This document shows positions 11,326 through 59,987 of a stretch of DNA of 64,000 bases, piece after piece. The notes beneath the pieces were generated by a model, which had not been told where the DNA came from, ran no database searches, and saw nothing but the letters and a program-made list of their open reading frames with translations. Made by a program: the position numbers and the translations under genes. The DNA is taken from NCBI GenBank assembly GCA_022772735.1, contig JALEZD010000018.1, positions 186,001 to 250,000 on the forward strand. Direction: 5' to 3'. The stretch is from Erysipelotrichaceae bacterium (GTDB taxonomy: Bacteria; Bacillota_I; Bacilli_A; Erysipelotrichales; Erysipelotrichaceae). The first letter of the stretch is position 1. Every line of letters begins with the position of its first letter.

Positions 11326-12318
11326 ATGGTAACTACAATTAATGATGTCGCAAAAAAAGCTGGTGTAACCATTGGTACCGTCAGCAAAGTATTAAATAAC
11401 TATTCTAATGTTTCAAAAGAAACAAAACAAAAAGTTTTAGATGCTGTAAGAGAATTAAACTACATTCCAAACACAATAGCAAGTGCTCTTTCTAGCAAAT
11501 CTAGTAATAGAGTTGCAGTTTATATTTATATTAACGATCAAAGACAAGCAATTGATGAAATTAATATGCAATATCTACAAGGGGCATTTTCAATTGCCAA
11601 TGAAGTAGGACTTAATATAATTACCGTATTCAATCACACTGTAAACAATATGGATGCGGATGAATTAATTCAATATTTAAAATCACAAGGAATTATTGGA
11701 TTATTAGTTTTTGGTTTAAACAAAGAAGATAAAATAATTCATGAAATTATTAAAAGAGAAATATTTTATAGTGTTGTTGTGGATGCTCCAATATTCAACA
11801 AAAAAACAACCTCTGTTTCCGTAGATCATTTTAATGGTCAATATGAAGTCGCAAGAAGAATTATTGAAAACAACAACATAAAAAACATTTTATATCTTGC
11901 AGGTAAATTAAATGGTTATGTTACAGATCAAAGATTAGAAGGAATAAAAAAACTCCAAAAAGATTTCAATTTAAATTTAACAATAAAATTTTGTGACTTC
12001 TCTGAAAAAAAAGCTTATGAAGAGACTTTAAACAATCAATCAGAACATGATGCAATAGTTTGTGCAAGTGATTTAATGGCAATTGGTGCTAAACATGCTC
12101 TACAATTTCTAAAAGTTGATAAAACAGTTTGTGGATATGATGGTATTACTCTTTTAGGGTATGCTGGAGAAAGTATATTGACTTGTAAACAAAATTTTTA
12201 TGCAATAGCTCAAACTGCTGTATTAGAAATGAAAAAATTAATGAATTTAAATGAAGGAACTCAAGTACTTTTAGGATATGAGATTTTAAAAATAACTTAT
12301 GATAAAGTTATTTTCTAA
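11326..12318 (+). CDS. malR: LacI-family transcriptional regulator (MalR-like)
   Basis: A 330-residue repressor. Residues 1-60 form the LacI helix-turn-helix and hinge: [20 protein letters not shown], then [16 protein letters not shown]. The rest is a periplasmic-binding-protein-like effector domain ([26 protein letters not shown]). The ATG has a GGGGG site 6 bp upstream. It is one of the few plus-strand genes, between the glucosidase and the phosphorylase. The two identical palindromes at the malE and phosphorylase promoters are its likely operators, with maltose or maltodextrin as inducer (inference). Confidence 0.88.
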
Positions 12319-12334
12319 ATCTTTTTTTATGCAC

Positions 12335-12363
12335 TTGTGGAAAACGTTTTCCTATGTTAACAT
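12335..12363 (+). promoter_or_regulatory. Maltodextrin phosphorylase promoter with embedded operator
   Basis: TTGTGG (12335-12340), 17-bp spacer, TAACAT (12358-12363). The operator GGAAAACGTTTTCC at 12339-12352 fills most of the spacer, so a bound repressor would block RNA polymerase directly. Confidence 0.75.
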
Positions 12364-12388
12364 ATTGACTTGTAAGGGAGAAAAACTT

Positions 12389-14653
12389 ATGAATTTAGAA
12401 AATCAATTAAAGAAAATTCTTGATAAAAAAATTAAAGATGCTTCTAATGAAGAACTTTATATTGCAACTTTGAAATTATGCAAAGAATTGTCTAATAAAA
12501 AACCTACAAATTCAAAAGATGAAAAAAAACTATACTATATTTCTGCTGAATTCCTAATTGGAAAATTACTTTCAAATAACTTAATTAATCTTGGTATATA
12601 CAAAGAATTAAAAGAAATTTTAGAAAAAAACAATAAAAATATTGTTGAAATTGAAGAAATTGAAAATGAGCCATCACTAGGAAATGGTGGACTTGGAAGA
12701 CTTGCAGCTTGTTTTTTAGATTCAATCGCAACACTTGGATTAAATGGTGATGGTATTGGTTTAAATTATCACTTTGGATTATTCAAGCAAACATTTAAAA
12801 ATAACAAACAAACTGAAGAAAAAAATGACTGGATTTCATCTGATTCTTGGTTAAACAAAACTGAAACATCATTTAAAGTTGATTTTAAAAACTTAAGTGT
12901 TACATCAAAACTATATGATATTGATGTTATTGGTTATAACAACAATGTAAATAAATTACATTTATTTGACATTGAAAGTGTTGATGAAAAATTAGTAAAA
13001 AAAGGAATTAGCTTTAATCAAACTGACATAAAAAAAGGATTAACACTATTTTTATACCCTGATGATTCTACAAAAGAAGGTCAACTTTTAAGAATATATC
13101 AACAGTATTTTATGGTATCTAGTGGTGCACAGTTAATCATTAAAGAAGAAAAAGAAAAAGGACATGATTTAAGAAATTTAGATAAACATGTTGCAATACA
13201 AATAAATGATACACACCCAACAATGGTAATACCTGAGCTAATAAGATTACTTTCTCTTGAAGGAATAGAAATGAAAGAAGCAATAAGAATTGTAACTAAT
13301 ACTTGTGCATATACAAATCACACTATTCTTTCAGAAGCACTTGAAAAATGGCCATATGAATACCTAAATGAAGTTGTTCCACAATTAATGCCAATTATTG
13401 AAGCTCTAGATGCTATTGTAAATGTAAAATATCCAAATAAAGAACTAGCAATTATTGATGAAAATAAAAGAGTACATATGGCTAGAATAGATATGCATTT
13501 CTCTCATTCAATAAATGGAGTTGCAGCTCTTCATACAGAAATATTAAAAAATGAAGAATTAAAACCTTTCTATGAAATATATCCTGAAAAATTTAACAAT
13601 AAAACAAACGGAATAACATTTAGAAGATGGTTGATGCACGCAAATTATGAATTAAGTGATTGGCTAGATAGCATGATTGGAGATTCTTGGAAGAAAAATG
13701 CATTTGATCTAGAAAAACTATTGTATTTCTATAATGATGAAGGTGCATTAAACGCAATTGAGCAAATAAAACTTAACAATAAAGTTAAATTAGCCAACTA
13801 TATCAAAGAACATGAAAATATTGATATTGATCCTAATTCTGTTTTCTTAATTCAAATAAAAAGACTACATGAATATAAAAGACAACAAATGAATGCATTA
13901 TATGTAATACACAAATATTTAGATATTAAATCTGGTAACATCCCTCAAAGACCAATAACATGTATATTTGGCGCAAAAGCTGCACCAGCATATACTATGG
14001 CAAAAAATATAATTCACCTATTATTGTGTTTACAAGATTTAATTAAAAATGATCCAATTGTTTCAAAACATTTAAAATTAGTAATGGTAACAAATTATAA
14101 TGTTACATATGCAGAAAAATTAATACCTGCATGCGATATTTCAGAACAAATTTCACTAGCTTCAAAAGAAGCAAGTGGTACAGGAAATATGAAGTTCATG
14201 TTAAATGGTGCTGTAACACTTGGTACAGAAGATGGTGCAAATGTAGAAATACATCAACTTGTTGGAGATGATAATATATTCATATTTGGTCAATCAAGTG
14301 ATGAAATAATTGAACACTACAACAAACATGATTATATTTCTAGACATTACTATGAAAAAGATGAAATCAAAAAACTAGTAGACTTTATTGTTAGTGATGA
14401 TGTAAGTAAATATGGAGATATAAATTTACTTAATGACTTAAGAAATGAATTAATCAATAAAGACTGGTTTATGACTTTGTTAGACTTACAAGATTACATA
14501 AACACAAAAGAATATGCACTTAAAGTTTATGAAGATAGAGAAAGATGGAAAAGAATGGCATTAGTTAATATTGCTAAAGCTGGATACTTCAGTAGCGATA
14601 GAACTATTGCAGAATATAACCACGATATTTGGAAATTGCCTGTAAAAAACTAA
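12389..14653 (+). CDS. malP: Maltodextrin/glycogen phosphorylase
   Basis: A 754-residue PLP-dependent GT35 phosphorylase that releases glucose-1-phosphate from alpha-1,4-glucan ends. I start it at [11 protein letters not shown] (12389), which has AAGGGAG upstream; an in-frame extension from 12299 overlaps the regulator gene and passes through the operator. Signature motifs are [16 protein letters not shown], the [12 protein letters not shown] block, [12 protein letters not shown] and [15 protein letters not shown] next to the PLP lysine. It is shorter than the second phosphorylase in this window (796 aa). Its control by the maltodextrin operator suggests imported maltodextrins, not stored glycogen, as the main substrate. 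Confidence 0.93.
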
Positions 14654-24583: not shown

Positions 24584-26014
24584 TTAGATTGAATAGTATA
24601 ACCTTTCGTATAAATCCCCACTATGCATCCAGCTAACATCACTGTTCAATGCATTTTGTATTAACCCATTAAAACCATGTTTATTGTAATAATATTGCTC
24701 ACTAGCCCACTTTAAAACATTAAACATATCATTACTATTTTTAGAATTAAAACTAAACCCATTCCCATCACCAGTAAATATGTTATATGGAATAACCGTA
24801 TCTTTTAAACCTCCAGTTTCTCTTACAAGAGGTAAACTTCCATACCTTAATGCAATTAACTGCCCTATTCCACAAGGTTCATAAAGTGAAGGCATTAAAA
24901 ATACATCACAACCAGCATAAATTCTATGAGCTAACTCCTCATTGTATCCACAATAAAACACAGCCCTTCCTTTATAGTTATCTTCTAACCACTTAAATGA
25001 ATCTTCTGCCTGCTTTTCACCACTTCCAAGCACAACAAACTGAACATTTAAATCCATTATGTTTTTAAATTGCTCACAAATCTGATAAATACCTTTTTGC
25101 CATGTTAATCGTGACACAAGTCCAATAAGCATTACATTTTCATCAACATTTAACCCTAACTCTTTTTGCAAAGATATTTTATTTTGTTTTTTTCCTTCGA
25201 CATAATTATTAATATCATAGTTGCATGCTAGAAGCTTATCTGTACTTGGATTCCAATCATCAGTATCTATACCATTTACAATACCCCATAAATCATGTTG
25301 TCTAAGTTTTAATACTTCTTGTAAGTTTTCACCATATTCTTCAGTTAAAATTTCATTAGAATAAGTTAAAGAGACTGTAGTAACCTTATTCGCAAAAACT
25401 ATTCCCGACTTCATAAAACTTATTCCACTATGAAATCTCACATCACCATTTGTGTAATAATGCCAGTCAATACCCAAACAGCTTTCTAACATTTCAGATG
25501 GAAAATTACCTTGAAAAGCTAAATTATGAATTGTATAAATATGCTTTATATTATTATACCTTTCATCTTGATAGCACGCTTTACACATTAAAGGAATCAT
25601 CCCCGTATGCCAATCATGCGTATGAATAATTTCAGGAAACCAATCTATCACATATAATAAGTCTAATGCAGCTCTTTGGAAAAATGAAAATCTTTCACCA
25701 TCATCCGCATATCCATAAAGTGAACTTCTTTCAAAATAACCTTGATGTTCAACAAAATAATATTTAACACCATCAACATTACTATAATAATATGATGCAG
25801 GTTGATTTATCCATCCACTTCTAATTTGAACTGTAGAAAATTTTTCTAGTTTTTCAAAATGTTTGTCAATGATTCCTTGATAAAGTGGTAATACAACTCT
25901 AACATCATATCCTCTATTAACCAATATTTTAGGTAAACTTCCAATAACATCAGCCAAACCACCAGTTTTTATAAATGGTAATCCTTCAGATGCTACAAAC
26001 AATACACTTTTCAT
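24584..26014 (-). CDS. glgA: Glycogen synthase
   Basis: A 476-residue GT5 enzyme that elongates glycogen from ADP-glucose. The N-terminal FVASEGLPFIKTGGLADVIG carries the KTGGLADV ADP-glucose motif. HDWHTGMIPLM, SRLTWQKGIYQI and PSLYEPCGIGQLIALRYGSL (catalytic E-X7-E region) are the further family blocks. It is the last gene of glgC-glgD-glgA, 2 bases after glgD. Confidence 0.96.
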   Translation of the reverse strand: MKSVLFVASEGLPFIKTGGLADVIGSLPKILVNRGYDVRVVLPLYQGIIDKHFEKLEKFSTVQIRSGWINQPASYYYSNVDGVKYYFVEHQGYFERSSLYGYADDGERFSFFQRAALDLLYVIDWFPEIIHTHDWHTGMIPLMCKACYQDERYNNIKHIYTIHNLAFQGNFPSEMLESCLGIDWHYYTNGDVRFHSGISFMKSGIVFANKVTTVSLTYSNEILTEEYGENLQEVLKLRQHDLWGIVNGIDTDDWNPSTDKLLACNYDINNYVEGKKQNKISLQKELGLNVDENVMLIGLVSRLTWQKGIYQICEQFKNIMDLNVQFVVLGSGEKQAEDSFKWLEDNYKGRAVFYCGYNEELAHRIYAGCDVFLMPSLYEPCGIGQLIALRYGSLPLVRETGGLKDTVIPYNIFTGDGNGFSFNSKNSNDMFNVLKWASEQYYYNKHGFNGLIQNALNSDVSWMHSGDLYERLYYSI

Positions 26015-26016
26015 AA

Positions 26017-27129
26017 TTAAATCCTATCTCTTCTTTTTACATATGCTGGAATTTCTTCCTTACATATTAACTCTTTTACATTTGAAATGATTGCACCTTT
26101 ATCCACAATTATTCTTTCAATTGTTACATCCTCATTAACAGTTACATTATGCAAAAGTACACAATCCTTAACAACTGCACCTTTTTTGATTGTTACATTT
26201 CTTCCAACCACACAATTTTCAACAGTACCATCAATTTTACAACCATTCGCAATAATGCAATTTTTTATTTTACTATTTTCACCATATACAGTTGGTGCGC
26301 TATCATTTGTCATTGTATGAATTGGCCAAGAATCATTTCTTAAAAGACCAACACCAGCTTTTGAACAATACTTCATATTTGTGTCATAATAAGCCTTAAT
26401 ATTATTAATACATGAAACATTATTTTTAACAGAATATCCACCAACTTTATATTTATCTAAACTATCATTAAGTATATCTTTAAACCAATATAAAGAGCTA
26501 ACCTTTGCAGCATCTTTAACAAGTTGAATAAACAACTCTCTTTTCATTACATACGCTTCAAGAGATATTATTCTGCTTTTATATCTTCCTCTGTTTTTTT
26601 CAATACCAATAATTCTTTTATCTTTATTAAATGTTAAACAATCACATCCAATAAATTCATCTTTAGCACTATCAACACTTTTATATAAAACACTAATATC
26701 ATTTCCACTTTCAATATGGCTATTTAAAACATCTTTGAAATTTGTACGATATACCATATATGTAGGTGCTAAAACAACATATTCCTTATCACATTCTTCA
26801 ATATAAACCATATTTCTAATAAAATTTTCAATATCAGTATTATATAGTTTTGAAGAATAATCTTCACCAAATAAAATTTTCAACTTACCCTTTTTAGAAT
26901 TGATATTATAATGTAATCCTGTTCCTAAATGTTCAACTAAACTTCTAGGTTTCTCTTTGCAATAAACATGTATTTCTGAAATTTCAGAATTTGTATAATT
27001 ACTAAGTGTAAAATCTATTAGTCTATATCTACCAAATATACTTATAGCTGATAAAGGTCTATAATCTTGCAAGCCATACACTTTTACATCATTATCTTCA
27101 ATATTAACAATACCTAATGCATCTAACAT
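26017..27129 (-). CDS. glgD: GlgD, glucose-1-phosphate adenylyltransferase subunit homologue
   Basis: A 370-residue relative of GlgC with a nucleotidyltransferase-like N-terminus (SIFGRYRLIDFTLSNYTNS) and a C-terminal left-handed beta-helix of hexapeptide-like repeats (IKNCIIANGCKIDGTVENCV). It lacks the GGRGSRL loop that GlgC uses to bind nucleotide, so it is probably the non-catalytic partner known from Firmicutes, where GlgC-GlgD heteromers are more active. It lies 2 bases from glgC. Confidence 0.92.
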   Translation of the reverse strand: MLDALGIVNIEDNDVKVYGLQDYRPLSAISIFGRYRLIDFTLSNYTNSEISEIHVYCKEKPRSLVEHLGTGLHYNINSKKGKLKILFGEDYSSKLYNTDIENFIRNMVYIEECDKEYVVLAPTYMVYRTNFKDVLNSHIESGNDISVLYKSVDSAKDEFIGCDCLTFNKDKRIIGIEKNRGRYKSRIISLEAYVMKRELFIQLVKDAAKVSSLYWFKDILNDSLDKYKVGGYSVKNNVSCINNIKAYYDTNMKYCSKAGVGLLRNDSWPIHTMTNDSAPTVYGENSKIKNCIIANGCKIDGTVENCVVGRNVTIKKGAVVKDCVLLHNVTVNEDVTIERIIVDKGAIISNVKELICKEEIPAYVKRRDRI

Positions 27130-27131
27130 AA

Positions 27132-28268
27132 CTATCCCTCCAAAATGCTTTTTGCAACAAGCTCAATATGTTCACTTTTACTGTTTCCTACAATTACACC
27201 TTCACCAATTTCTACATCAGAGGCTACTATACACCTATTAATAACTGCATTACTCTTTATTTTCACCCCAGGCATAATGACACTATCTATAACCTTAGCT
27301 CCTTTTTCAATTAAGGTATCACTAAATATTACAGAATGTTCCACACTACCCTCAATAATACTTCCTTGGTTAATATACGAATTTGATACTTTTGCTTCTT
27401 CTCCAATATATTGAGGAATTGAATTGACATCCTCAGTGTATATTTTCCATTTTGGATCATTTAAATCTAGTCCGCTATCTGCTTTAAGGATATCCATATT
27501 TCCTTCCCAAAGACTATCTATTGTTCCAACATCTTTCCAGTATCCTTTAAAACGATAAGCAGCTAATTTTTTATTGTCATTTATATACGTTGGAATAATA
27601 TCATTTCCAAAATCATGAGAAGAATTTTCATTTTTCATATCATTAATCAAATATTTTCTTAATGCTTTGTAATTAAATATGTATATTCCCATACTTGCAA
27701 GATTACTTTTAGGATTTTTTGGTTTTTCTTCAAATTCAATAATTAAATCATCTTTATCTGTATTCATAATTCCAAATCTAGATGCTTCTTTCATACTAAC
27801 TTCTAATACTGCAATTGTTGCATCAGCTTCTTTTTGTTTATGATATTCAAGCATTGCAGAATAATCCATTTTATAAATATGGTCCCCAGATAAAATTAAT
27901 ACATATTCTGCTTCCATTTGATCTAAAAAATCTATGTTTTGTGTTATTGCATCTGCAGTACCACGATATTTTTCAAAACCACTTTCATCAGTTTCTCTTG
28001 GAGGTAATACAAAAACTCCACTATCTTTCGCATCTAATCCCCACCTTTGATCTCTTGCCACATATGAATTTAACAAAACGGATTCATACTGAGTTAAAAC
28101 ACCAACAATATCAATGTCTGAATTAGCACAATTTGATAATGGAAAATCTATAATTCTATACTTACCACCAAAATAAACTGCAGGTTTTGCAACCTTTTTT
28201 GTAAGCTCAAAAAGGCGTGACCCTCTACCCCCTGCAAGAATCATCGCAACCATTTTGTTATCTTTCAT
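27132..28268 (-). CDS. glgC: Glucose-1-phosphate adenylyltransferase, catalytic subunit
   Basis: A 378-residue enzyme forming ADP-glucose from ATP and glucose-1-phosphate, the committed step of glycogen synthesis. [20 protein letters not shown] is the catalytic nucleotide loop. [27 protein letters not shown] (metal and substrate) and [19 protein letters not shown] follow, then a beta-helix C-terminus. It is first in glgC-glgD-glgA, has its own promoter and an AGGAGG site. Confidence 0.97.
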
Positions 28269-34076: not shown

Positions 34077-36467
34077 TTACCTCATTTTTCTAATATTCCA
34101 TATATCCTTTGCATACTCATCAATTGTTCTATCACTTGAAAAAACATATGACTTTGCAATATTTATTAAACAAGATTTTGCCCAAGCATTTTTATTTGAG
34201 TATCTTTTTTCAATTTCTTTTTGTGCTTTTACATAACTATCAAAATCTGCGAATAACATATACTCATCATTTTTAGACATTAATTCATCAAAAATCACTC
34301 TAAATTCATTAGCATCATTTGACCATGTTAAATCAATTAAAGAATCAACTGCTTTTTTAAGCTTTTCATTATTAATGTAGTAATCAAACGCATTATAAGA
34401 CTCTTTTAGCTTATTAACTTCATCAACAGTCAAACCAAATATAACATCATTTTCTCTGCCTACTTGTTCATCAATTTCGACATTTGCGCCATCCAATGTA
34501 CCAAGAGTTATTGCACCATTCATCATAAATTTCATATTGCCAGTACCACTCGCTTCTTTACCAGCAAGAGAAATTTGTTCTGAAACATCACTTGCATTAA
34601 TCAATATCTCTGCAATAGATACTGAATAATTTGGTATAAACACAATCTTAATCATTCCTCTTACATAAGGATCATTATTAATAACATTGGCAATTTTGTT
34701 AATTAGTTTTATTACATTTTTCGCAAAACTATATGATGGCGCTGCTTTTGCTGCAAAAATAAATGTTCTAGGAGTAATTTCAAATTCAGGGTTTGAAACA
34801 ATTTCTTGATAAAGCATTATTATATGCAAAACATTTAAAAGCTGTCTTTTATACGCATGTAATCTTTTAGCCTGTGTATCAAAAATAGAGTTCACATCAA
34901 CTTTAATTCCTGTTTTCTCAAAAATAAATTTTGCAAGGATTTCTTTTCTTCTTTTTTTAACATTTAAAAATTCATTTTGAGTATTTTCGTCATCAACAAA
35001 CTCAAGTAATTTTCGTATACTATCAAACTCAGTATGGTAATGTGTACCAATTTTATTATCAATTAAATTTCTTAATTCAGGATTCGAATATAAAAGCCAT
35101 CTTCTTTGTGTTATTCCATTTGTTTTATTATTAAATTTTTCAGGATAAATAATACTAAATTCTTTAAACAAATCTGTCTTTATTAAATTAGAATGAATTT
35201 TTGCAACACCATTAACACTATGGCTACCAACTATAGCTAAATTTGCCATATGAACTTGACCATCTTTTAAAATTGCTACTGCATTTTCAAGTCCGTAATG
35301 TTTATGTCTTACATAACTTAAAAATCTTCTATTTATTTCATCAATTATCAAATAAATTCTTGGCAAAAGCTTTTCCATTAAATTTATTGGCCATCTTTCA
35401 AGTGCTTCAGATAAAACTGTATGATTTGTATAAGCCATTGTATTTACAGTTATATCCCATGCTTCATTCCACTCATAATCATAATCATCCATTAAAACTC
35501 TTAAAAGTTCTACAATCGCAAGAACAGGATGAGTATCATTTAGTTGTATAGCAACTTTACTGGCTAAATTATCTAATGTTTTATATGTTTCTAAATGAGT
35601 TTTTATAATTGAAGCAATTCCTGCACAAACAAAAAAGTATTGTTGTTTTAATCTTAAAACTTTACCTTCCATTGTTGAATCATCAGGATATACATTTAAG
35701 TTGATTGCTTTTGTATCTGCAATATACTTTTGAAAATCAATATTATGAGGTAATTTTTCACTTGCCTCTGCTGACCATAATCTTAGAGTATTTGTTACTT
35801 TAGTATTTTGTCCAATAATAGGCATATCGTAAGGAATTGCAGTAATATGTTCAGCATCATGCAATTTAAATTTCATTTTACCCTTACTATTAACATCCAT
35901 TGTCAAATGTCCCCAAAAAGAAACATCAACCGCATGTTTAGGTTTCCTAACTTCCCAAATATTTCCAAGTTTTAACCATTGATCTGGAACTTCAATTTGA
36001 TTACCATTTTCATCAATTATTTGTTTAAAAAGTCCATACTCATATCTAATACAATTCCCATTACCCAAATAATTATTTGAAGCTAAAGAATCCATAAAAC
36101 ATGCTGCAAGTCTTCCAAGTCCACCATTACCAAGTCCAGCATCTGATTCCAATTCTTCTAATGCAGCAATATCGATACCTAAATCATTTAATCCATCTTT
36201 TACAACTTCATATATTCCTAAATTCATCAAATTGTTGCTCATTAGCCTTCCAATCAAAAATTCCATTGAAAAATAATACATCTGTTTTTCATTATTCTTA
36301 ACTGTTTTTTCTTTAGAATCCATCCAATTTAAACTAGCATAATCTCTTATTAAATTCCCTAAAACAATATATTTTTCAGTTATGTCTGTTGTATCAATAT
36401 GTCTTCCATAAGTTTCTTCTATTCTTCTTTTAAATATTTCTTTGAAAGTTTCTTTATTTTTAAACAT
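34077..36467 (-). CDS. glgP: Glycogen phosphorylase
   Basis: A 796-residue GT35 phosphorylase, full length for the glycogen type. It shows [52 protein letters not shown] and [20 protein letters not shown] (PLP region). The start is the ATG at 36465-36467, which overlaps the glgB stop by 8 bases with GGGG upstream; the longer in-frame reading only covers the glgB end. Standing between glgB and pullulanase, it most likely acts on stored glycogen, whereas the shorter paralogue at 12389 is tied to maltodextrin import. Confidence 0.95.
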   Translation of the reverse strand: MFKNKETFKEIFKRRIEETYGRHIDTTDITEKYIVLGNLIRDYASLNWMDSKEKTVKNNEKQMYYFSMEFLIGRLMSNNLMNLGIYEVVKDGLNDLGIDIAALEELESDAGLGNGGLGRLAACFMDSLASNNYLGNGNCIRYEYGLFKQIIDENGNQIEVPDQWLKLGNIWEVRKPKHAVDVSFWGHLTMDVNSKGKMKFKLHDAEHITAIPYDMPIIGQNTKVTNTLRLWSAEASEKLPHNIDFQKYIADTKAINLNVYPDDSTMEGKVLRLKQQYFFVCAGIASIIKTHLETYKTLDNLASKVAIQLNDTHPVLAIVELLRVLMDDYDYEWNEAWDITVNTMAYTNHTVLSEALERWPINLMEKLLPRIYLIIDEINRRFLSYVRHKHYGLENAVAILKDGQVHMANLAIVGSHSVNGVAKIHSNLIKTDLFKEFSIIYPEKFNNKTNGITQRRWLLYSNPELRNLIDNKIGTHYHTEFDSIRKLLEFVDDENTQNEFLNVKKRRKEILAKFIFEKTGIKVDVNSIFDTQAKRLHAYKRQLLNVLHIIMLYQEIVSNPEFEITPRTFIFAAKAAPSYSFAKNVIKLINKIANVINNDPYVRGMIKIVFIPNYSVSIAEILINASDVSEQISLAGKEASGTGNMKFMMNGAITLGTLDGANVEIDEQVGRENDVIFGLTVDEVNKLKESYNAFDYYINNEKLKKAVDSLIDLTWSNDANEFRVIFDELMSKNDEYMLFADFDSYVKAQKEIEKRYSNKNAWAKSCLINIAKSYVFSSDRTIDEYAKDIWNIRKMR

Positions 36468-38307
36468 TTTTTGTCCCCACTTTCTTTTTTTTATACAAAA
36501 ATATACTTGCACTAAATGGTGCAATATTTACTTTTATTGTATTTTCATACCCATGTCTATATATTTTTTCACTATTTACGCAATATGTTGCAAAATTAAT
36601 TCCACCATAAATATCCCATTCACTATTTAATATCTCTTTATATTCCCCACTAAATTTAACACCTATCTCATAATTACTATATGAATTTGGACACATGTTA
36701 AATAAACAAACAATATACTCTTTTTCATCTTCTCTAGTATAAGAATAAATGCTCTGTGCACTATTATCTGCATCAATCCATTTAAACCCATCATATTGAT
36801 AGTCATATTTGGATAATGCACTATGTGCTTTATATATTAAATTTAAATCCTTAAAATACCTTGCAAACTTTTGATGTGTTTCAAAATTTAATATGTCCCA
36901 ATCTAAACCTCGATTTTCATCAAATTCCCTAAACATTGCAAATTCATTACCCATAAAGTTTAACTTTTTACCTGGATGAGTAAACATATACGCATATAAA
37001 TTTTTTACTTGAGAAAACTTTTGATTATAATCTCCCCACATCTTATCTATTATTGTTTTTTTGCCATGAACTACCTCATCATGTGATAAAGGTAATATAA
37101 ATTTTTCACTATAGAAATAAGCCATAGAAAATGTAAGTTTATGATGTTCCCATATTCTATATATTGGATCAATTTCATAATACTTTAGTGTATCATTCAT
37201 CCACCCCAAATCCCACTTATAATCAAAACCTAAACCACCATATATTGTCGAATCACATACTTTTTCAAAATCACTACTATCTTCTGCAATAAGCATAACA
37301 CTTGGATATTTTTGATTTAAATAAAAATTCATTCTCTTTATAAAAGCAAGAGCACCTTCATTTGTTCCTCTATCTTTATTTCCATCCCAAAATATTAAGT
37401 TTGAAACTGCATCAAACCTTATTCCATCAACATGATAAGTATCACACCAAAAACTTGCGCTACTCATCAAAAAACTTCTCACTTCTTCATTCCATAAATT
37501 AAAATTTAATGTTCCCCATTGACTATTCGCATCAAATTCATTTGGATATTCATACAGTGGTTTCCCATCAAATAACCTTAAACCATGAGAATCCTTAACA
37601 AAATGCACAAAAGCCATATCTATTATTATTCCTATGTTTTTTTTATGTGCTTCGTTAATAAATTCGGCAAGTTCATGTGGATTACCAAACCTACTTGTGC
37701 ATGAATAATATCCACTTGCTTGATATCCCCAAGAACCATCAAATGGAAATTCATTTAATGGCATAAATTCAATATGTGTAAATCCATTTTCTAAAACGTA
37801 TGGAATTAACTCTTCTTTTAGCTCCACAAAAGAATAATATCTTCCATCTTTTCTTTTCCAACCACCTGCATAAACTTCATATATATTTACAGGCTTGTCA
37901 AAATTTTTACTTCTCTTATTTAGCCAGCGTTTATCACTCCATTTAATAGTTGATAAATCATACAAAAAACTACTTGTATTTGGTCTAAGTTCATTAAAAT
38001 ATGAATATGGATCTGCTTTATCAGAATAATTATCATTTTCATCAAAAATACGATACTTATACATATCATATTGTTTTAATCCAGCAATAAAAATACTAAA
38101 TACCCCATCTTCTAACTTATTCATCATGTGGGTATTTTGCCAATCATTAAAACTCCCAACAACAAATACTTTTTTTGCATTAGGAGCATATACGTTAAAC
38201 CTTACACCATTAATTCCTTTTTCTTTAACAAAATGTGAACCAAAAACTTTATACGCATCTAAACAATGACCTTCATGAAAGCTTTTAATAATATTTTTAT
38301 CGACCAT
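36460..38307 (-). CDS. glgB: 1,4-alpha-glucan branching enzyme
   Basis: A 615-residue GH13 enzyme making alpha-1,6 branches in glycogen. The CBM48 module GVRFNVYAPNAKKVFVVGSF precedes the barrel. Catalytic blocks are GIRFDAVSNL, LIAEDSSDF and LSHDEVVHGK, and YAGGWKRK with ELIPYVLENGFTHIEFMPLN is typical of GlgB. It is the first gene of a glgB-glgP-pullulanase run with its own promoter, apart from glgCDA. Confidence 0.95.
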   Translation of the reverse strand: MVDKNIIKSFHEGHCLDAYKVFGSHFVKEKGINGVRFNVYAPNAKKVFVVGSFNDWQNTHMMNKLEDGVFSIFIAGLKQYDMYKYRIFDENDNYSDKADPYSYFNELRPNTSSFLYDLSTIKWSDKRWLNKRSKNFDKPVNIYEVYAGGWKRKDGRYYSFVELKEELIPYVLENGFTHIEFMPLNEFPFDGSWGYQASGYYSCTSRFGNPHELAEFINEAHKKNIGIIIDMAFVHFVKDSHGLRLFDGKPLYEYPNEFDANSQWGTLNFNLWNEEVRSFLMSSASFWCDTYHVDGIRFDAVSNLIFWDGNKDRGTNEGALAFIKRMNFYLNQKYPSVMLIAEDSSDFEKVCDSTIYGGLGFDYKWDLGWMNDTLKYYEIDPIYRIWEHHKLTFSMAYFYSEKFILPLSHDEVVHGKKTIIDKMWGDYNQKFSQVKNLYAYMFTHPGKKLNFMGNEFAMFREFDENRGLDWDILNFETHQKFARYFKDLNLIYKAHSALSKYDYQYDGFKWIDADNSAQSIYSYTREDEKEYIVCLFNMCPNSYSNYEIGVKFSGEYKEILNSEWDIYGGINFATYCVNSEKIYRHGYENTIKVNIAPFSASIFLYKKKKVGTKNV

Positions 38308-40537: not shown

Positions 40538-41011
40538 CTACTTGTGATAAGGCAAATTATGTTTGATTGATAACAAACGATAAATTTGTTCCACAACTAA
40601 TAATCTCACAATTTGATGTGGAAATGTACAACTAGATAACTTCCATCTAACGTTAGCTCTATTAACAACACTACTTGATAACCCTAATGAGCCACCTATG
40701 ACAAATGTGATTTTACTTGTTATATTAAAATTATCATTCAGATTTTTTGATAAAACTTCTGAACTATAATCTTTACCGTGTAAATCTAATAAATATACAA
40801 ATTCATCATCTGATATATGTTTTAAAATATTGTCACCTTCAATATTTTTTATTTTTTCATTAATGGCTTCCTTCGCATTTTTAGGAATTGGTTCATCATT
40901 TACTTCAATAATATTTATTTTACTAAATTGAGTTATTCTTTGAACATATTCATCAATAAGAGATTTTAATGCTTTTTCTTTTATTTTTCCTACTGCAATT
41001 ATTTTTATCAT
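40538..41011 (-). CDS. rlmH: 23S rRNA pseudouridine-1915 N3-methyltransferase
   Basis: A 157-residue SPOUT-fold enzyme methylating pseudouridine 1915 in helix 69 of 23S rRNA. FVIGGSLGLSSSVVNRANVR is the knotted SAM-binding region, and LVVEQIYRLLSIKHNLPYHK is the nearly invariant C-terminus. It overlaps the HtrA-like gene by 4 bases (ATGA). The adjacency walJ-htrA-rlmH is conserved in many Firmicutes. Confidence 0.96.
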   Translation of the reverse strand: MIKIIAVGKIKEKALKSLIDEYVQRITQFSKINIIEVNDEPIPKNAKEAINEKIKNIEGDNILKHISDDEFVYLLDLHGKDYSSEVLSKNLNDNFNITSKITFVIGGSLGLSSSVVNRANVRWKLSSCTFPHQIVRLLVVEQIYRLLSIKHNLPYHK

Positions 41012-42057
41012 AACTCAACTTCTACTTCTAATGTTTCATTATTTCTGTTATACACTATTTTAATTTTTTCCTGTGCATTTAATTTATATATTGCATCATA
41101 ATATGATTTTATATCAGTAACATCAAAACCATTTATACTCAAAATTATATCTCCAACCTTTAATCCTGCTTTAGCAAGAGGACTACTTTCTTGTACTTGA
41201 CTTAAATACACTCCATTTGTTGTATCCAAACTAATTCCAAAATTACTTTTTTCATAAGAACTCATGTTATATATCGAGCCTGCATCAATCCCAAGATATA
41301 CCCTTTGAAGATTACCAGTTTCAATTATTTTTTCAACAATAGGAAATAATTCTTCTCTACTTAATGCTATATTTTTAAACTCACTACTTACTCTAGTTAG
41401 ATTAAGTCCAATAAGTTCCCCATTTAAATTAAGCATTGCACCACCATTGTTGTCATTATTTATAGTTGCATCACTTTGCAACATATTAAACTTCCAATCA
41501 ATAGCACTATCACTATTTAAATCAATTCCTACACTATTATTTAATCCTGTTATTATTCCAAATGAAACAGCATTTGAATACGATTTAAAACCAAGGGACA
41601 AAATATATTCTCCAACCCTTGAATTACTATAATTATTTGAATAAAAAGATTCGACATTAAAATCAGGTTTTACCAAAATAACACTAACTCCGCTTTCAAT
41701 ATCACTACCAATAATGTTTCCATTAATTAAAGCACCATTCGCAAATTCAACAGTAACACTACTACTGCCATCAACAATAAACTCACTGGTAACAATATAC
41801 ACTCCATCTTCAATTTGTTTATAAACAATTCCGCTTCCTTCTCTAAATTCAACATCATTTTTAAAAGACTTTACTTTTACTATTTTTGATTCACTGGCAT
41901 TCACAAGTTCTGTAATATTTGTTAGTACACCATTTAAAACAGTTATTTTCGCCTCATTTGTACTTTGATTTGAATTTTCTATCTTGTTTAATTTATACGT
42001 TAAATACCCATTCCACACAAGAAGAGATGCTATAATCGCTATTAAAACTTTCTTCAT
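41008..42057 (-). CDS. HtrA-like PDZ protein with an inactive protease domain
   Basis: A 349-residue membrane-anchored HtrA homologue: one N-terminal transmembrane segment, a linker (~25-55), a trypsin-like fold (~60-245) and a PDZ domain (~250-349, YLGIDAGS, SSPLAKAGLKVGDIILSING). All three catalytic positions are changed when aligned with DegP. The histidine motif TNNHVV reads TSEFIV (His to Phe). The aspartate motif SDIAL reads SGVSV (Asp to Gly). The serine motif GNSGGAL reads DNNGGAM (Ser to Asn). The fold-defining NLNGELIGLN is intact and the frame is open, so it looks like a maintained pseudoprotease, not decay. GGAGG lies before the ATG; it overlaps walJ by 65 bases. Confidence 0.87.
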   Translation of the reverse strand: MKKVLIAIIASLLVWNGYLTYKLNKIENSNQSTNEAKITVLNGVLTNITELVNASESKIVKVKSFKNDVEFREGSGIVYKQIEDGVYIVTSEFIVDGSSSVTVEFANGALINGNIIGSDIESGVSVILVKPDFNVESFYSNNYSNSRVGEYILSLGFKSYSNAVSFGIITGLNNSVGIDLNSDSAIDWKFNMLQSDATINNDNNGGAMLNLNGELIGLNLTRVSSEFKNIALSREELFPIVEKIIETGNLQRVYLGIDAGSIYNMSSYEKSNFGISLDTTNGVYLSQVQESSPLAKAGLKVGDIILSINGFDVTDIKSYYDAIYKLNAQEKIKIVYNRNNETLEVEVEL

Positions 42058-42808
42058 AATCTATTCCTCCAGAAACTATTTCAAATTGCCTTGCTGCAAC
42101 AATTTTTAAATCATTGTTTAAATCACATCTTTTATTTTCTAACAAGTAATCAACATTTGTTTTAAGTGCTAATTCATATGTGTTTGTTTCTTCTGAAATA
42201 TGTGCCAATATTATTTTTTTTGTTTTTTTACTTACAATTTTTTCTAATACAACTGCACAATCTTCATTACAAAGGTGCCCTGTATCTGATTTTATTCTAG
42301 ATTTTAAATACTGTGGTCTTGAGCTATTCATAAGCATTGTTAAATCATGATTACTTTCAATTACAATATAATCTGCATCTTTCATTAACTCAATATTACT
42401 ACTATGAACATATCCTGTATCAGTAACATAAACAAGTTTTTCATTATTACACTCAAAAATATAACCAACAGTTATACCACTATCGTGAGATAAAGGTATA
42501 GGTGTTACAACCATTTTATCAATTTTAAAAGTTTGTCTTGGTCTTAATATTTTTGCATCTTCCCTTTTTTCTAAATAAACTGGAGAATATACTAAACAAT
42601 TCTTAAAAACGGGTAGTTGACTTATATGATCACTATGACTATGAGTTATAAGCAATAAATCAATTTTATTAATATCAATTCCCAGCTTATTAAAACTAGA
42701 TATTAAATGTCTTCTTGTTCCACCACAATCAATCACAATAACTCTTTTATCATTTTGAAGGATAAAACAATTCCCTTTTGAACCACTCGCAATTAAATGA
42801 AATTTCAT
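41993..42808 (-). CDS. walJ: WalJ/YycJ-type metallo-beta-lactamase-fold protein
   Basis: A 271-residue MBL-fold hydrolase. MKFHLIASGSKGNCFIL is the family N-terminus, LLITHSHSDHISQL the metal-binding HxHxDH, and VYVTDTGYV and ESNHD follow. I start at the ATG 42806-42808, which lines up with YycJ; the in-frame extension upstream only overlaps the M23 gene. The ribosome site is poor (GAGG about 18 bp away), so translation may be coupled to the M23 gene. In Bacillus, WalJ belongs to the walRKHIJ cluster and has been linked to cell division and DNA metabolism; here walRKHI are absent locally. Confidence 0.9.
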   Translation of the reverse strand: MKFHLIASGSKGNCFILQNDKRVIVIDCGGTRRHLISSFNKLGIDINKIDLLLITHSHSDHISQLPVFKNCLVYSPVYLEKREDAKILRPRQTFKIDKMVVTPIPLSHDSGITVGYIFECNNEKLVYVTDTGYVHSSNIELMKDADYIVIESNHDLTMLMNSSRPQYLKSRIKSDTGHLCNEDCAVVLEKIVSKKTKKIILAHISEETNTYELALKTNVDYLLENKRCDLNNDLKIVAARQFEIVSGGIDYEESFNSDYSISSCVEWVFNV

Positions 42809-42809
42809 A

Positions 42810-44312
42810 CTAACAAGGTAAATAACCCTCGCAAGGGTTTCTCCTTTCTCCATTTTCCATAATAAAGAAGTGTACATGTGGTCCAGATGCTTTTCCAGTC
42901 ATACCTATTTGACCTATAACATCTCCCTTATCAACAATATCTCCAATCTTTAAAAATGTAGGTTTATTCATATGACCATAATATGTTTGGAATCCATTAC
43001 CATGATCAATAATTATGTAGTTACCATTAATAGAAGTATAACCGACTTCAAAAACCCTTCCTCTATCAGAAGCATACAATTCTCCATAACGATTATAACT
43101 ATTTTGAATATCAATAGCCCTATGATTGTAATAACAACCCCATCTACATGAAATAAATGGATTATCAACTGGCCATCTAAATGTACCAGTTCCTTCTCCC
43201 GGTATCTCTAAAGTTCCAACCTTTATTATTTCCTGTACAGGCTGTTTTGTTATAACACTAGATATTTCACTACCACTAACTAAAACCCCGTTTATCCATT
43301 TTTCGTTATATAAAACATTTTTACTTCCTAGTACTTCAGCCTGAATACTTTGTTGTTCACCTTTTTTCATACTTGCATCTTCAACAAGAATTGCAGAATC
43401 AGGATAAACATTTTCTTCAACTACACTTTCTCTATTAACAATAATATCTAATGGAGAAGTAAAATATGTAACATTTAATACTGTTCCTGCCTCTAAAACC
43501 TGTTCAGTACTTTTTATAATATCACTATTAATATTCATAACTTGAGTTGCACTTAAACCAAAATTCTTAGAACCTACCCCTTCCACAGTATCGTATTTAA
43601 TAACAGTGTAGTATTTTCTTTCTGTATTTTTTCCGTATTTTAAATATTCCAAAACTTCTTCTTTTGTTGTTTTGATATTATCTGGATTTGTATATGCCTT
43701 TTTATTACTAATACTTTGAACAATTTCTATACCAGTCACCCTAGAACCAAAGCCACTAATCGCTCCTGTAACTTGATTATTTCTTATTAGTTTTAATGAA
43801 TTTTCATCAACAAAGTATTTTAAATAATCGTTTAATGCATCATCAAAAATAGATTTATCACTCACATAAATAATGTCATAAACCCCTTCGTTATTAGAAA
43901 ACTCTATTGCATTGGCAGATATAGTAAAAAGATTTCTTTCTTGTAAATACTTAAAAATTTCATCATCAATATTCTCAAAATCATAATAACTTAATTCATT
44001 TATGATATAAACATCTTGTCCAATATCTATAGACGCATTAGGATATTTTTCTTGATATCTTTCTTTATATATTTCTTCTAATTTACCATCAATAAATTCA
44101 TTATCACTAATTACACCTACTAATTTACCTGAGTCATATAATTTTGAAATTTGTTTACTTGTATCGTTAACTTTTATAATTTTTTGACTTAACACTTGAG
44201 AATTACCGTTTATTTGTGCATCTAAAGTATAACCAAAATTTTTATTATTAAAATAAAAACCTAAACCTATCGCAAATAATAGAGAAATTAATATTGGTAT
44301 ATATTTTTTCAT
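42810..44312 (-). CDS. Membrane-anchored G5-domain M23 peptidase
   Basis: A 500-residue cell-wall endopeptidase. One N-terminal transmembrane segment (MKKYIPILISLLFAIGLGFY) leads to a long extracellular stalk (~35-270). A G5-like domain follows (~290-365, containing VVEENVYPDSAILVEDASMK and VITKQPVQEIIKVGT), then a C-terminal M23 domain (~370-500). Zinc ligands are visible in NHRAIDI (HxxxD) and GPHVHF, so the domain should be active on peptidoglycan cross-bridges. Four cysteines cluster in the M23 domain (SCRWGC and NPCEGYLPC), possibly forming disulfides. It follows dnaB by 2 bases and precedes walJ, taking the place of walH/walI. Confidence 0.9.
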   Translation of the reverse strand: MKKYIPILISLLFAIGLGFYFNNKNFGYTLDAQINGNSQVLSQKIIKVNDTSKQISKLYDSGKLVGVISDNEFIDGKLEEIYKERYQEKYPNASIDIGQDVYIINELSYYDFENIDDEIFKYLQERNLFTISANAIEFSNNEGVYDIIYVSDKSIFDDALNDYLKYFVDENSLKLIRNNQVTGAISGFGSRVTGIEIVQSISNKKAYTNPDNIKTTKEEVLEYLKYGKNTERKYYTVIKYDTVEGVGSKNFGLSATQVMNINSDIIKSTEQVLEAGTVLNVTYFTSPLDIIVNRESVVEENVYPDSAILVEDASMKKGEQQSIQAEVLGSKNVLYNEKWINGVLVSGSEISSVITKQPVQEIIKVGTLEIPGEGTGTFRWPVDNPFISCRWGCYYNHRAIDIQNSYNRYGELYASDRGRVFEVGYTSINGNYIIIDHGNGFQTYYGHMNKPTFLKIGDIVDKGDVIGQIGMTGKASGPHVHFFIMENGERRNPCEGYLPC

Positions 44313-44314
44313 AA

Positions 44315-45682
44315 CTATTCACCACCCATATAATCATCCGCTTCAGCAGTGAAAATTGAGTTTGTTGAGCCTTGGAATGCAAACCTAATAACTCCTGTTT
44401 TTCCATTTCTATGTTTTGCAATATCAATCTCTAACGGTTGCATTGCATTTGGATCAGGCTTTTCGTTTTGATCTTCTTTTCTATCATAATATTGACTTCT
44501 AAAAAGTAACATTATGATATCTGCATCTTGTTCAATTGCACCTGATTCTCTTAAATCTGACATCATAGGTCTTTTATCTGTACGTGATTCAACATTTCTA
44601 CTCAATTGTGAAAGTGCGATTACTGGAACATTTAGCTCTCTTGCCAGTGCCTTCAAATTTCTAGAAATTTCTGAAACTTCTTGTTGTCTGTTTTCTTTAT
44701 TATTTCCTGAACCACTTATCAATTGAATATAATCAATAAAGATTGCAGCTAAACCCTGTTCACTTTGCAATTTTCTGCACTTTGAAAAAATCTCTGTAAC
44801 TCTAATTCCAGGAATATCATCAATATACATTTTTGTATTTCTTAAAGTTGCGGCAGCCTCATTTAGCTTTTGCCAATCACTATCACTTAATTTACCTGTT
44901 TTTATTTTCTCAATAGGAACAGAAGATTTTGAACTTAATATACGCTCAAGCAATTGTTCAGCAGCCATCTCCAAAGAAAATATAGCTACTGCTTCATTTG
45001 ATTGATATTGCGCTATTTTTGATGCGAAATTCAACGCAACTGCAGTTTTACCCATAGATGGTCTAGCTGCCAAAATAATTAAATCTCCTCTTTGAAATCC
45101 ATGGGTATAATTATCAAGATGTTCAAATCCTGTTTTCAGACCAGTTATACCACTTTTGTTACCTGACATTTTTATTATTCTTTCAAGAACATTGTTTACT
45201 ACAGTCGCACTACTTTTAAAATCTGTAGTTCTTCTACTTCTTGTAACATTTAAAACAGATTTTTCTGCCATATCTAAATAGTCATCTATATCTGTTTGCC
45301 CATCAAATCCCTCTTCAACAACCTTTTGACAAGCCTCAATCATATTTCGCATATATGCTTTATTTTGAATAAGCTCTACATATGCTTTTGTATTAAAACT
45401 TGAAACTGATGTGTCACAAAGAGTCATTAAATACTCAACTCCACCAATACTACCTAAAATACCCAAGTCATTTAACCTTGTTCCAAGTGTAGTAATATCT
45501 ACAGGTTTTTGTTCATTATATAAATCGTTAATGGCATAAAATATTTTTTTATGATTTTCTAAAAAAAGGTACTCAGCTCTCATACCAGCTTCTATTGCGA
45601 TTTGAGCTGAATTTGGATAAACCATGATTGTACCTAAAAGACTTTGTTCTGCATCTATTGCATTTGGTAAAGTTTTTACCAT
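44315..45682 (-). CDS. dnaB: Replicative DNA helicase
   Basis: A 455-residue hexameric helicase that unwinds DNA at the fork (called DnaC in Bacillus). The N-terminal domain opens with LPNAIDAEQSLLGTIM. The RecA-like C-terminal domain has Walker A AARPSMGKTA, LAAIFIDYIQLISG (Walker B), LSQLSRNVESRTDKRPMMSD and ESGAIEQDADIIM. I prefer the ATG at 45680-45682 over an in-frame GTG at 45697 that lies inside rplI. The rplI-dnaB pair is conserved in Firmicutes. Confidence 0.96.
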   Translation of the reverse strand: MVKTLPNAIDAEQSLLGTIMVYPNSAQIAIEAGMRAEYLFLENHKKIFYAINDLYNEQKPVDITTLGTRLNDLGILGSIGGVEYLMTLCDTSVSSFNTKAYVELIQNKAYMRNMIEACQKVVEEGFDGQTDIDDYLDMAEKSVLNVTRSRRTTDFKSSATVVNNVLERIIKMSGNKSGITGLKTGFEHLDNYTHGFQRGDLIILAARPSMGKTAVALNFASKIAQYQSNEAVAIFSLEMAAEQLLERILSSKSSVPIEKIKTGKLSDSDWQKLNEAAATLRNTKMYIDDIPGIRVTEIFSKCRKLQSEQGLAAIFIDYIQLISGSGNNKENRQQEVSEISRNLKALARELNVPVIALSQLSRNVESRTDKRPMMSDLRESGAIEQDADIIMLLFRSQYYDRKEDQNEKPDPNAMQPLEIDIAKHRNGKTGVIRFAFQGSTNSIFTAEADDYMGGE

Positions 45683-45683
45683 A

Positions 45684-46130
45684 TTATTCAATTCCACTTA
45701 AATGGCATTTAATGTTGCCAATAACATTTTTATATAATTCAACTTTTACAACTGTTGTTCCAAGTGTAGCAATAGGTTGTGTATCAATAATTTTTCTTTT
45801 ATCTATGTTTATTCCTTGTTTTGCAAGCTCTTCAACAATAGCTTTTGTAGAAATAGAGCCAAATACTCTTCCTTCTTTACCTGATTTAACCTTAAATTCA
45901 AAAACCATATTTTCAAGTTTTTCTTTAATAATTTCAGCTTCTTTTTTTAATTCCTGTTGATTCAACTCTTCTTTTTTCTTTTGGTCTTCTAATATTTCTC
46001 TACTTTTATTTGACTCTTGAACAGCAAGTTTTTTTGCAAGTAAAAAATTTCTAGCGTATCCATCCGCAACTTCTACAACCTCGCCTTTTTTACCAACTTT
46101 TTTTACATCACTAAGCAATATTACTTTCAT
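45684..46130 (-). CDS. rplI: Ribosomal protein bL9
   Basis: A 148-residue large-subunit protein. MKVILLSDVKKVGKKGEVVEVADGYARNFLL is the conserved N-terminal domain (given here only as landmark from residue 1), followed by a long helix rich in Lys/Glu and a C-terminal domain with GSISTKAIVEELAKQGI. The ATG at 46128-46130 has AGGAGG upstream; a GTG just before it is in frame but less likely. It overlaps gdpP by 20 bases. Confidence 0.96.
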   Translation of the reverse strand: MKVILLSDVKKVGKKGEVVEVADGYARNFLLAKKLAVQESNKSREILEDQKKKEELNQQELKKEAEIIKEKLENMVFEFKVKSGKEGRVFGSISTKAIVEELAKQGINIDKRKIIDTQPIATLGTTVVKVELYKNVIGNIKCHLSGIE

Positions 46131-57767: not shown

Positions 57768-59987
57768 TTATTCACTTCTAAATGTTTTTAACCAATAATG
57801 ATTATTATAAATGTCAGTTAGTCTATAACTATAAATTAAATTTGGATTATTTATATAAATATTACTTAAAGTTAAATCATTTGAAACAACATATACATCA
57901 TTTAAAAAATGTTTCTCAACTTTTTTACCATCATAACTATGATAATCACAAACAAACTGAAGTTTATCACCTTCAACAATGTCAATTAATCCTTTTGCCT
58001 CTTGGTGTGCATCATCATAAACTTTTCTAGCACCTAAAACAACACCATTTTCATTTTCACTTGAAAATTCAACCATAATATTTACAAATTCATCATTCAA
58101 ATATGCTGGAATATATCCTTGTATCTTATAATAATCCCCATTAACCTCTGTTGATAACATTTTGTATGAGACTATATTATCATTTAATGCTAGCCAAGAT
58201 TTATCATAATCAATAATTAAATCTCCATTTTCATTAAAATCAAAAGTATTATCAAGTCCCAAATCAATAAATCCATTTCCATCATCAATAAACACATTTA
58301 ATTCAATATCTTTAATAAGTTTCCATTCCTCTTCACTTAAAGATAAAACATTTTTACCATTTATTTGACTTATTTCAAAAGAAGATTGATTAACACTATT
58401 TCTTCCTATTATTTGCGCTATATCAGATAAACTTGAAATATCTAGCCAATCACTACCCCCAAGTAACTGTAAAAAATCTCCATTTAATGCATCATTTAAC
58501 ATTGAACTAATATCTACATTTGTTTGACTTGAATAAGTATTATTTAATAAAGTATCAATTAATGAAGTATGACTTGAACCAGAATTATTTACAACAATTT
58601 GTCCACTACTTGTTAAAGTGGCAAAGTTTTTAACTGCCATACTATAATCTTCATCAATATCAATGTTGTCATAAATTTTAACCATATTATTCATTTTATT
58701 CAAACTAGAATATGGAAAATAAATACTTAGTCCATGTGCATTAGAGATATTTTTACTTCGATTATATTTAACAGCACTTTTTATTACATTAGCTAATGCC
58801 AGGCTTTCTTCACTATTAATTTTTATCGCAAAATCATATAAATCAATTTGATCTAATCTTGATGACTTTGAAAATTCTTTAGACAAACTTCTGGCATCAC
58901 TCACAACTTTAAAGTTATCACTCTTAATTGTTTCAGATAAATTTTTTGAAAAATCTTTTAAACTTTTTACCAATGTAGATTCAAGTTCAGATAAATCAGT
59001 AATTGATAATGTTAACTGATCTTTTGTTGATGTAGAAGAAGATATATAATCATCTATTAATAATTTTGATAAATCCAATGTTGAAATAGATGTATTATCA
59101 TTAAGTGCACTAATCCAATTTGTGTAATACCACCCTGTACCAGGCTCAACTTCTTCTGATGCAATTAAATAATCTGCATGTGCTTTTAATGAAATTGCAT
59201 TTTCCAAAGTAGCCATCAAACAAGCATCAAATCCAACAAAATCAAATTTCACTCCACCTTTTTTAAGCGCACTTGATATCTCATCAATACTCATTGTGTT
59301 CCCTGGAAAATATTCATCATATCCAAATCCATTAACTGAACCTGCACCATGATCCCACATTATTAAGATATTTCTATTTGCAGGATACTTTTTTGAAGCA
59401 AAATTGATAAAATCACTCAAAGTATCTGGTTCACTCATGTTTTTCAAGCCAACTTTATCATCAATTAAACTCATACCTTTATTGTTGATTAAATACCTTT
59501 GGTTTTTACCACTTTTGATAACACTATTTTGCCAAGTCTTAGCACCACCTGTTTCAACAACAATATTTAAATTTTCATTATTAATTTTCGCATATAAAAT
59601 CTCATTCAAATCTTTAGTAGCCATTCCATATCTACTCTCTAGATCTGAACCTACCATATAAATCATTATTGTAACTTTATCACTACCATCACCATTTAAA
59701 ATAGTATATTTTTCTCTTGATAAATCATCAACAGAATAATTTACTTCTTTATCATTTACTATGTTATATTCTGCACTAGAAACAGGCAAAGTATTAATTA
59801 TTGACTGTGTATTTGTAGTAGGTTGTTTAAAAACTAAACTATAAATAACAAACAAAACAATACCAATCAAACTTAAACCAGAACCACCCCTAATAATATT
59901 TGAACCACTGTTTGATGTACTGCTTGAAAAAACTGAAACTGATTTGCCTGAATAATTTCTTTTTCTTGATTTAGGTCTATTTTCCAT
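57768..59987 (-). CDS. Membrane-anchored clostripain-family (C11) cysteine protease
   Basis: A 739-residue protease. A basic cytoplasmic start (MENRPKSRKRNYSGK) and one transmembrane helix (~35-52, SLIGIVLFVIYSLVF) put the rest outside. The C11 core has TIMIYMVGSDLESRYGMATK, ILIMWDHGAGSVNGFGYDEY (catalytic His) and DFVGFDACLMATLENA (catalytic Cys), followed by YLIASEEVEPGTGWYYTNWI. The C-terminal ~300 residues lack a recognised domain. Clostripain relatives cleave after Arg or Lys and are common in gut bacteria; the substrate here is unknown. Confidence 0.89.
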   Translation of the reverse strand: MENRPKSRKRNYSGKSVSVFSSSTSNSGSNIIRGGSGLSLIGIVLFVIYSLVFKQPTTNTQSIINTLPVSSAEYNIVNDKEVNYSVDDLSREKYTILNGDGSDKVTIMIYMVGSDLESRYGMATKDLNEILYAKINNENLNIVVETGGAKTWQNSVIKSGKNQRYLINNKGMSLIDDKVGLKNMSEPDTLSDFINFASKKYPANRNILIMWDHGAGSVNGFGYDEYFPGNTMSIDEISSALKKGGVKFDFVGFDACLMATLENAISLKAHADYLIASEEVEPGTGWYYTNWISALNDNTSISTLDLSKLLIDDYISSSTSTKDQLTLSITDLSELESTLVKSLKDFSKNLSETIKSDNFKVVSDARSLSKEFSKSSRLDQIDLYDFAIKINSEESLALANVIKSAVKYNRSKNISNAHGLSIYFPYSSLNKMNNMVKIYDNIDIDEDYSMAVKNFATLTSSGQIVVNNSGSSHTSLIDTLLNNTYSSQTNVDISSMLNDALNGDFLQLLGGSDWLDISSLSDIAQIIGRNSVNQSSFEISQINGKNVLSLSEEEWKLIKDIELNVFIDDGNGFIDLGLDNTFDFNENGDLIIDYDKSWLALNDNIVSYKMLSTEVNGDYYKIQGYIPAYLNDEFVNIMVEFSSENENGVVLGARKVYDDAHQEAKGLIDIVEGDKLQFVCDYHSYDGKKVEKHFLNDVYVVSNDLTLSNIYINNPNLIYSYRLTDIYNNHYWLKTFRSE

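Follow-up and report, generated by a model that had tools for sequence, protein, structure and literature searches.

On the minus strand of the window (the whole 64,000-nt stretch of DNA analyzed here), an unbroken ORF at 41008–42057 with an ATG start encodes a 349-aa HtrA-like protein in which all three catalytic residues have been replaced. We consider it probable that this protein, referred to below as the query, is an HtrC-type HtrA that has lost catalysis and now serves as a membrane-anchored, non-catalytic PDZ adaptor beside an intact paralogue. Its assignment draws on the ORF, Pfam, an alignment to DegP, an AlphaFold2 model and a fold match. When the query is aligned to the solved structure of DegP (2zle), TNNHVV becomes TSEFIV, SDIA becomes SGVS and GNSGG becomes DNNGG, just as a preliminary description of this DNA had read the three motifs. 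The alignment, the relatives (in which the triad columns of the query align identically) and the codons place Phe93 (TTT, 41779–41781) at the catalytic His, Gly123 (GGA, 41689–41691) at the catalytic Asp and Asn204 (AAT, 41446–41448) at the catalytic Ser. Oxyanion Gly202, close to Asn204, is an Asp in the query, in which the FAIP substrate loop has also been replaced. The protein has neither a His nor a Cys anywhere in its length, and since it lacks any His, a Ser-His-Asp triad is ruled out at every position; a shifted triad was rejected for this reason, and the intact triad elsewhere in the protein that the preliminary description had named as a refutation is absent. Judged from its residues, triad-based proteolysis by the query is impossible.

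The rest of the protein retains the layout of the HtrA/Deg family. Pfam identifies a trypsin-like domain at residues 74–218 (Trypsin_2, E 5.9e-12; 41404–41838, minus strand) followed by a PDZ domain at residues 278–349 (PDZ_2, E 4.6e-15; 41011–41226, minus strand), the latter spanning about 257–349 in the AlphaFold2 model, and sequence matches in the PDB and the fold match give the same order, so the earlier reading of an intact frame and PDZ domain stands. The structure prediction proposed in that description gave a confident HtrA fold (pLDDT 85.2, pTM 0.79), closest among solved structures to M. tuberculosis HtrA and DegS with Z of about 30 over about 280 residues. This predicted fold supports the residue equivalence of the triad positions and says nothing on function; an HtrA fold without a working triad is that of a pseudoprotease. 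The top NCBIfam match is to the Do/HtrA family, at 141 bits and well under the cut-off of 416. A putative hydrophobic N-terminal anchor, proposed from sequence and conservation, covers residues 4–20 (VLIAIIASLLVWNGYLT; 41998–42048, minus strand); the hydrophobic N-terminus is conserved across intact and triad-less relatives and has low pLDDT in the model. PADLOC returned for the locus just a weak domain-level match to RT-Protease_XI (E 1.4e-5), an identity that we discounted and attribute to the common trypsin fold.

The query sits in a run of minus-strand genes ordered dnaB, M23/G5 peptidase, metallo-beta-lactamase (MBL), htrA and rlmH. The dnaB replicative helicase gene (44315–45697), an ORF named from sequence and kept as a neighbor in relatives, and the M23 peptidase gene with a G5 domain (42810–44312, Pfam) lie upstream, followed by the walJ/yycJ-like MBL gene (41993–42808, ORF and Pfam), whose start was taken as MKFHLIASGSKGN. 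Downstream, rlmH (40538–41011; SPOUT_MTase, E 5.8e-50) overlaps htrA by 4 nt (ATGA), an overlap that is almost universal at this locus. Because a number of Gram-positive species are known to have an HtrA gene beside rlmH, B. subtilis htrA3 (HtrC) being one example (PMC12826053), the position of the query, adjoining rlmH and downstream of a walJ/yycJ-like gene, is the HtrC position. At the other end of the gene, the 3′-end of the MBL gene overlaps the anchor codons of htrA by 65 nt (window 41993–42057), such that the anchor is coded in two frames; this overlap is 65–101 nt in genus g31 and 65 nt in g30, while several other genera show a 4-nt overlap or a gap at the junction. No walRK genes adjoin htrA within the 64-kb window, and Rfam gave no match at the locus. 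Elsewhere in the window, genes named from sequence form a glycogen cluster, in a genome of 1.8 Mb, with two glycogen phosphorylase genes (12299–14653 and 34077–36524) together with glgA, glgC/glgD-like and glgB genes (24584–28268 and 36460–38307), and a 739-aa protein at 57768–59987 resembles a clostripain-type (C11) peptidase with a putative membrane anchor.

To place the loss in context, we surveyed relatives in the query's family (f1), its genus (g1) and another family of the same order, Erysipelotrichales (f2). In both other g1 species the locus copy, 43–44% identical to the query, has a canonical triad, which indicates that the query's triad loss is recent. Across f1, 116 locus copies among the matches listed comprise 66 with H-D-S, 46 that have lost the Ser and 4 more that have lost the His or Asp; at least one triad residue is therefore missing in 50 of the 116, and the preliminary description's view that loss at this locus is unusual does not hold. 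Matches were taken best-scoring first, so weakly matching copies are under-sampled. Losses among the matches listed fall in g1 (the query), g6, g18, g20, g30, g31, g62, g64 and g68, including 3 of 4 copies in g20, all 40 in g31, 1 of 9 in g62 and 1 of 2 in g64. A tree built without the motif columns requires 10 switches between the intact and the lost state, of which well-supported branches force at least 7; this count is approximate given the quick method and some long branches, and the contrasts within g1, g20, g62 and g64 are independent of the deep branches. The losses in g30 and g64 are Ser to Thr alone with His and Asp kept, a pattern with which some activity might remain. The F/G/N combination occurs in the query alone among the copies surveyed (among the matches listed), and replacements differ by lineage and vary widely inside g31, so we dropped the idea of a conserved replacement signature, and the consistent F/G/N positions anticipated earlier for relatives did not materialize.

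Several further observations come from the same survey. The locus copies of g3 and g66 keep H-D-S; in the g3 copies (L115, L136, L137, L140, L141, L144–L148 and L151), which would be candidate proteases, GYSG replaces GNSGG, and no MBL gene was found at the g3 locus. The closest 16 HtrAs read in f2, which was grouped with Thomasclavelia cocleata (the L154 protein is identical to the L022 protein), are all canonical. A motif scan of named genomes returned mostly distant canonical HtrAs, because the pattern held GNSGG. A literature search on HtrA in Erysipelotrichaceae found nothing relevant.

The query genome has one other HtrA, with motifs TNNHV, SDLAV and GNSGG and an intact triad, which is predicted to be the active HtrA of the same cell. 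All 31 genes of this paralogue that were examined, one of them covered by two overlapping loci, have an intact triad. A second HtrA is present in 46 of the 50 genomes with a triad-less copy among the matches listed; the remaining 4 are three g31 assemblies of limited completeness and G199, which has an intact locus-type duplicate. G199 (g62) has no usual second HtrA: its locus copy L106 is without the Asp and lies on a very long branch, and the intact copy, L072, is elsewhere. Triad loss was seen in 0 of 24 tree rows from single-HtrA genomes versus 40 of 81 rows from genomes that have another HtrA. A plain Fisher test of the link between loss and a second HtrA, which ignores shared ancestry, gives p 0.0002; with shared ancestry counted, the link is not significant, and the tree-aware pair test was without power. 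The tie between triad loss and a second HtrA is thus suggestive, and redundancy can reasonably be inferred as the cause of loss.

Evidence that triad-less copies can be maintained comes from g31, where none of the 40 locus copies among the matches listed has an intact triad. Measured by simple counting, and with dS near saturation in some pairs, dN/dS between close triad-less g31 pairs is 0.02–0.30 over the whole gene and 0.014–0.27 over the protease domain, with 0.04–0.15 for rlmH of the same pairs; for pairs with dS under about 1.5, the median is near 0.15 in triad-less copies and near 0.10 in intact ones. The low values within the protease domain indicate that the dead domain is still constrained, and at the level of codons the g31 triad-less copies are clearly held by purifying selection. 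The low dN/dS that the preliminary description had looked for at this locus is therefore found in triad-less g31 pairs, separately from the shared F/G/N positions it had coupled to it. Conservation shared by intact and g31 copies covers structural glycines, the anchor and PDZ positions; at the triad, the oxyanion loop and the FAIP loop it has been lost in g31. Per-column entropy of the protease domain is 1.29 for intact copies and rises to 1.94 for g31, and it stays at 1.9 in the PDZ domain, for two sets of unequal taxonomic breadth. In g31 the dead HtrA probably serves as a binding or scaffold protein beside its active sister protease.

The query itself shows a more ambiguous history. In quartets of the query, its two g1 mates and G068, the ratio of the query branch to the path between the mates is 2.3 for htrA and 0.4–1.6 for eight other informative genes (rlmH 0.79, M23 0.68, dnaB 0.90, the paralogous HtrA 0.76), the highest of which is a phosphomutase-like gene at 1.56; the MBL gene was left out, as was HPr for being too conserved. 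The acceleration affects the protease and PDZ domains alike and spares the anchor, though the anchor overlaps the MBL gene. Of 36 protease columns that are almost invariant, 15 are no longer kept in the query, and most of these surround the active site. This htrA-specific acceleration, together with the canonical g1 copies, is what would be expected if the query were in early neutral decay, in which the paralogue made it redundant and the triad drifted away before the frame was broken. Such decay also has precedent: two small genomes of g31 carry just remnants of the gene, G032 a short ORF with an HtrA match limited to the anchor (L272, 1196–1498) and G071 an anchor followed by stops (L273, about 1974–2190), and in other genera the gene is absent, with rlmH coming after MBL and no htrA recognized between them in G014, G065, G140 and G147. 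These remnants and absences show the fate of the gene once it is truly released, and contrast with the open-frame triad-less copies of 40 g31 species (among the matches listed), which persist under selection.

Several lines of evidence weigh against decay of the query. When an HtrA frame was drifted neutrally in simulation to 64% identity, it was stop-free in 0 of 2000 runs, such that the excess divergence of the query is too great for a neutral frame without stops, and under neutral drift its frame would probably have been broken by now. The full fold is still predicted with confidence, and the query keeps half the protease columns that are 70%-conserved as well as 10 of the 12 anchor columns, the latter again within the stretch shared with the MBL gene. 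Early decay accordingly strikes us as somewhat unlikely, though it carries real weight. As known from a single sequence, the query appears less constrained than its intact relatives, yet not plainly dead. The selection for a non-proteolytic role that the preliminary description had proposed thus agrees with the missing triad, the retained frame and fold and the purifying selection in g31, and sits less well with the acceleration of the query; conversely, its second refuting pattern, canonical relatives beside a relaxed copy, is partly present, in that the g1 relatives are canonical and the query is accelerated in both domains. We infer such selection on the query mainly by analogy with g31.

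A quite improbable alternative is that the frame is kept just as a translational bridge, with ribosomes reading through htrA to rlmH across the near-universal 4-nt overlap and the protein itself being dispensable. Since rlmH is found without htrA in the four genomes above, htrA is not required as a bridge, and in several genera rlmH follows immediately on MBL or on a different gene; moreover, coupling leaves the amino-acid-level purifying selection in g31 unexplained, which argues strongly against it. That the query still cleaves through another nucleophile or an unusual site is very improbable indeed: we found nothing in its support, and the lack of His and Cys, the Asp at the oxyanion position and the replaced substrate loop all speak against it. 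A sequencing or assembly artefact, for which nothing speaks, has a negligible chance given that three codons have changed separately while the frame is unbroken, that the assembly is 97.5% complete with 0.03% contamination, and that similar losses occur in many other genomes.

We therefore return to the non-catalytic adaptor as the best explanation. The intact paralogue would presumably carry out proteolysis, freeing the locus copy, which as an N-terminally anchored protein would be expected at the cell surface. There, the trypsin fold and PDZ domain could bind stretches of other proteins or their C-termini and leave them uncut. The role of the protein may be that of an adaptor, scaffold or holdase whose clients are secreted or belong to the envelope, or it may partner the active HtrA. 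On this basis the query copy would be functional and not on its way out. It is possible, and we suggest it only tentatively, that within f1 the HtrA of the dnaB–rlmH locus repeatedly became a non-proteolytic surface adaptor, fixed across g31 and paired with an active HtrA paralogue or the adjacent M23/G5 peptidase, and that the query is a separate recent switch. Provided that the copies of g31 and of the query are functional, the locus offers a natural series of intact, triad-less but conserved, decayed and deleted genes. To annotate the rlmH-locus gene as a serine protease is incorrect for a large fraction of f1.

HtrA pseudoproteases are already known in MamO, PflC and plant Deg proteins, and the query is thus a new member of this class. 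The nearest parallel to its history is in magnetotactic bacteria, where the triads of MamO and inactive MamE were broken several times independently, with redundancy proposed as the cause, and where MamO binds metal and activates MamE (PMC4794232); as there, a broken-triad HtrA relative stands beside an active HtrA paralogue and loss has recurred independently. MamO, however, binds metal through two surface histidines and has a TauE transporter domain, whereas the query has a plain anchor–protease–PDZ layout at a core chromosomal locus and no histidines, which rules out a MamO-like di-histidine metal site. PflC of the Campylobacter jejuni flagellar motor uses a triad-less HtrA protease–PDZ fold, as the query has, as a motor scaffold (PMC12222027), but it has two PDZ domains, lies in a Gram-negative periplasm and builds a motor disk, and the query has no tie to a motor. 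Plant Deg proteins have likewise lost triad residues in Deg/HtrA domains, such as the second domain of Deg7, which serves trimerization, and Deg16 (PMC3473262), though these are eukaryotic and have other domain layouts. By position and layout the query is closest to the HtrC/YycK-type HtrAs next to rlmH in Bacillus, Streptococcus, Listeria and others, which are active-type proteases, B. subtilis HtrC acting on YpeB (PMC12826053). The copies of its g1 mates and most other f1 locus copies are canonical members of this type; the query differs from it in being without all three triad residues.
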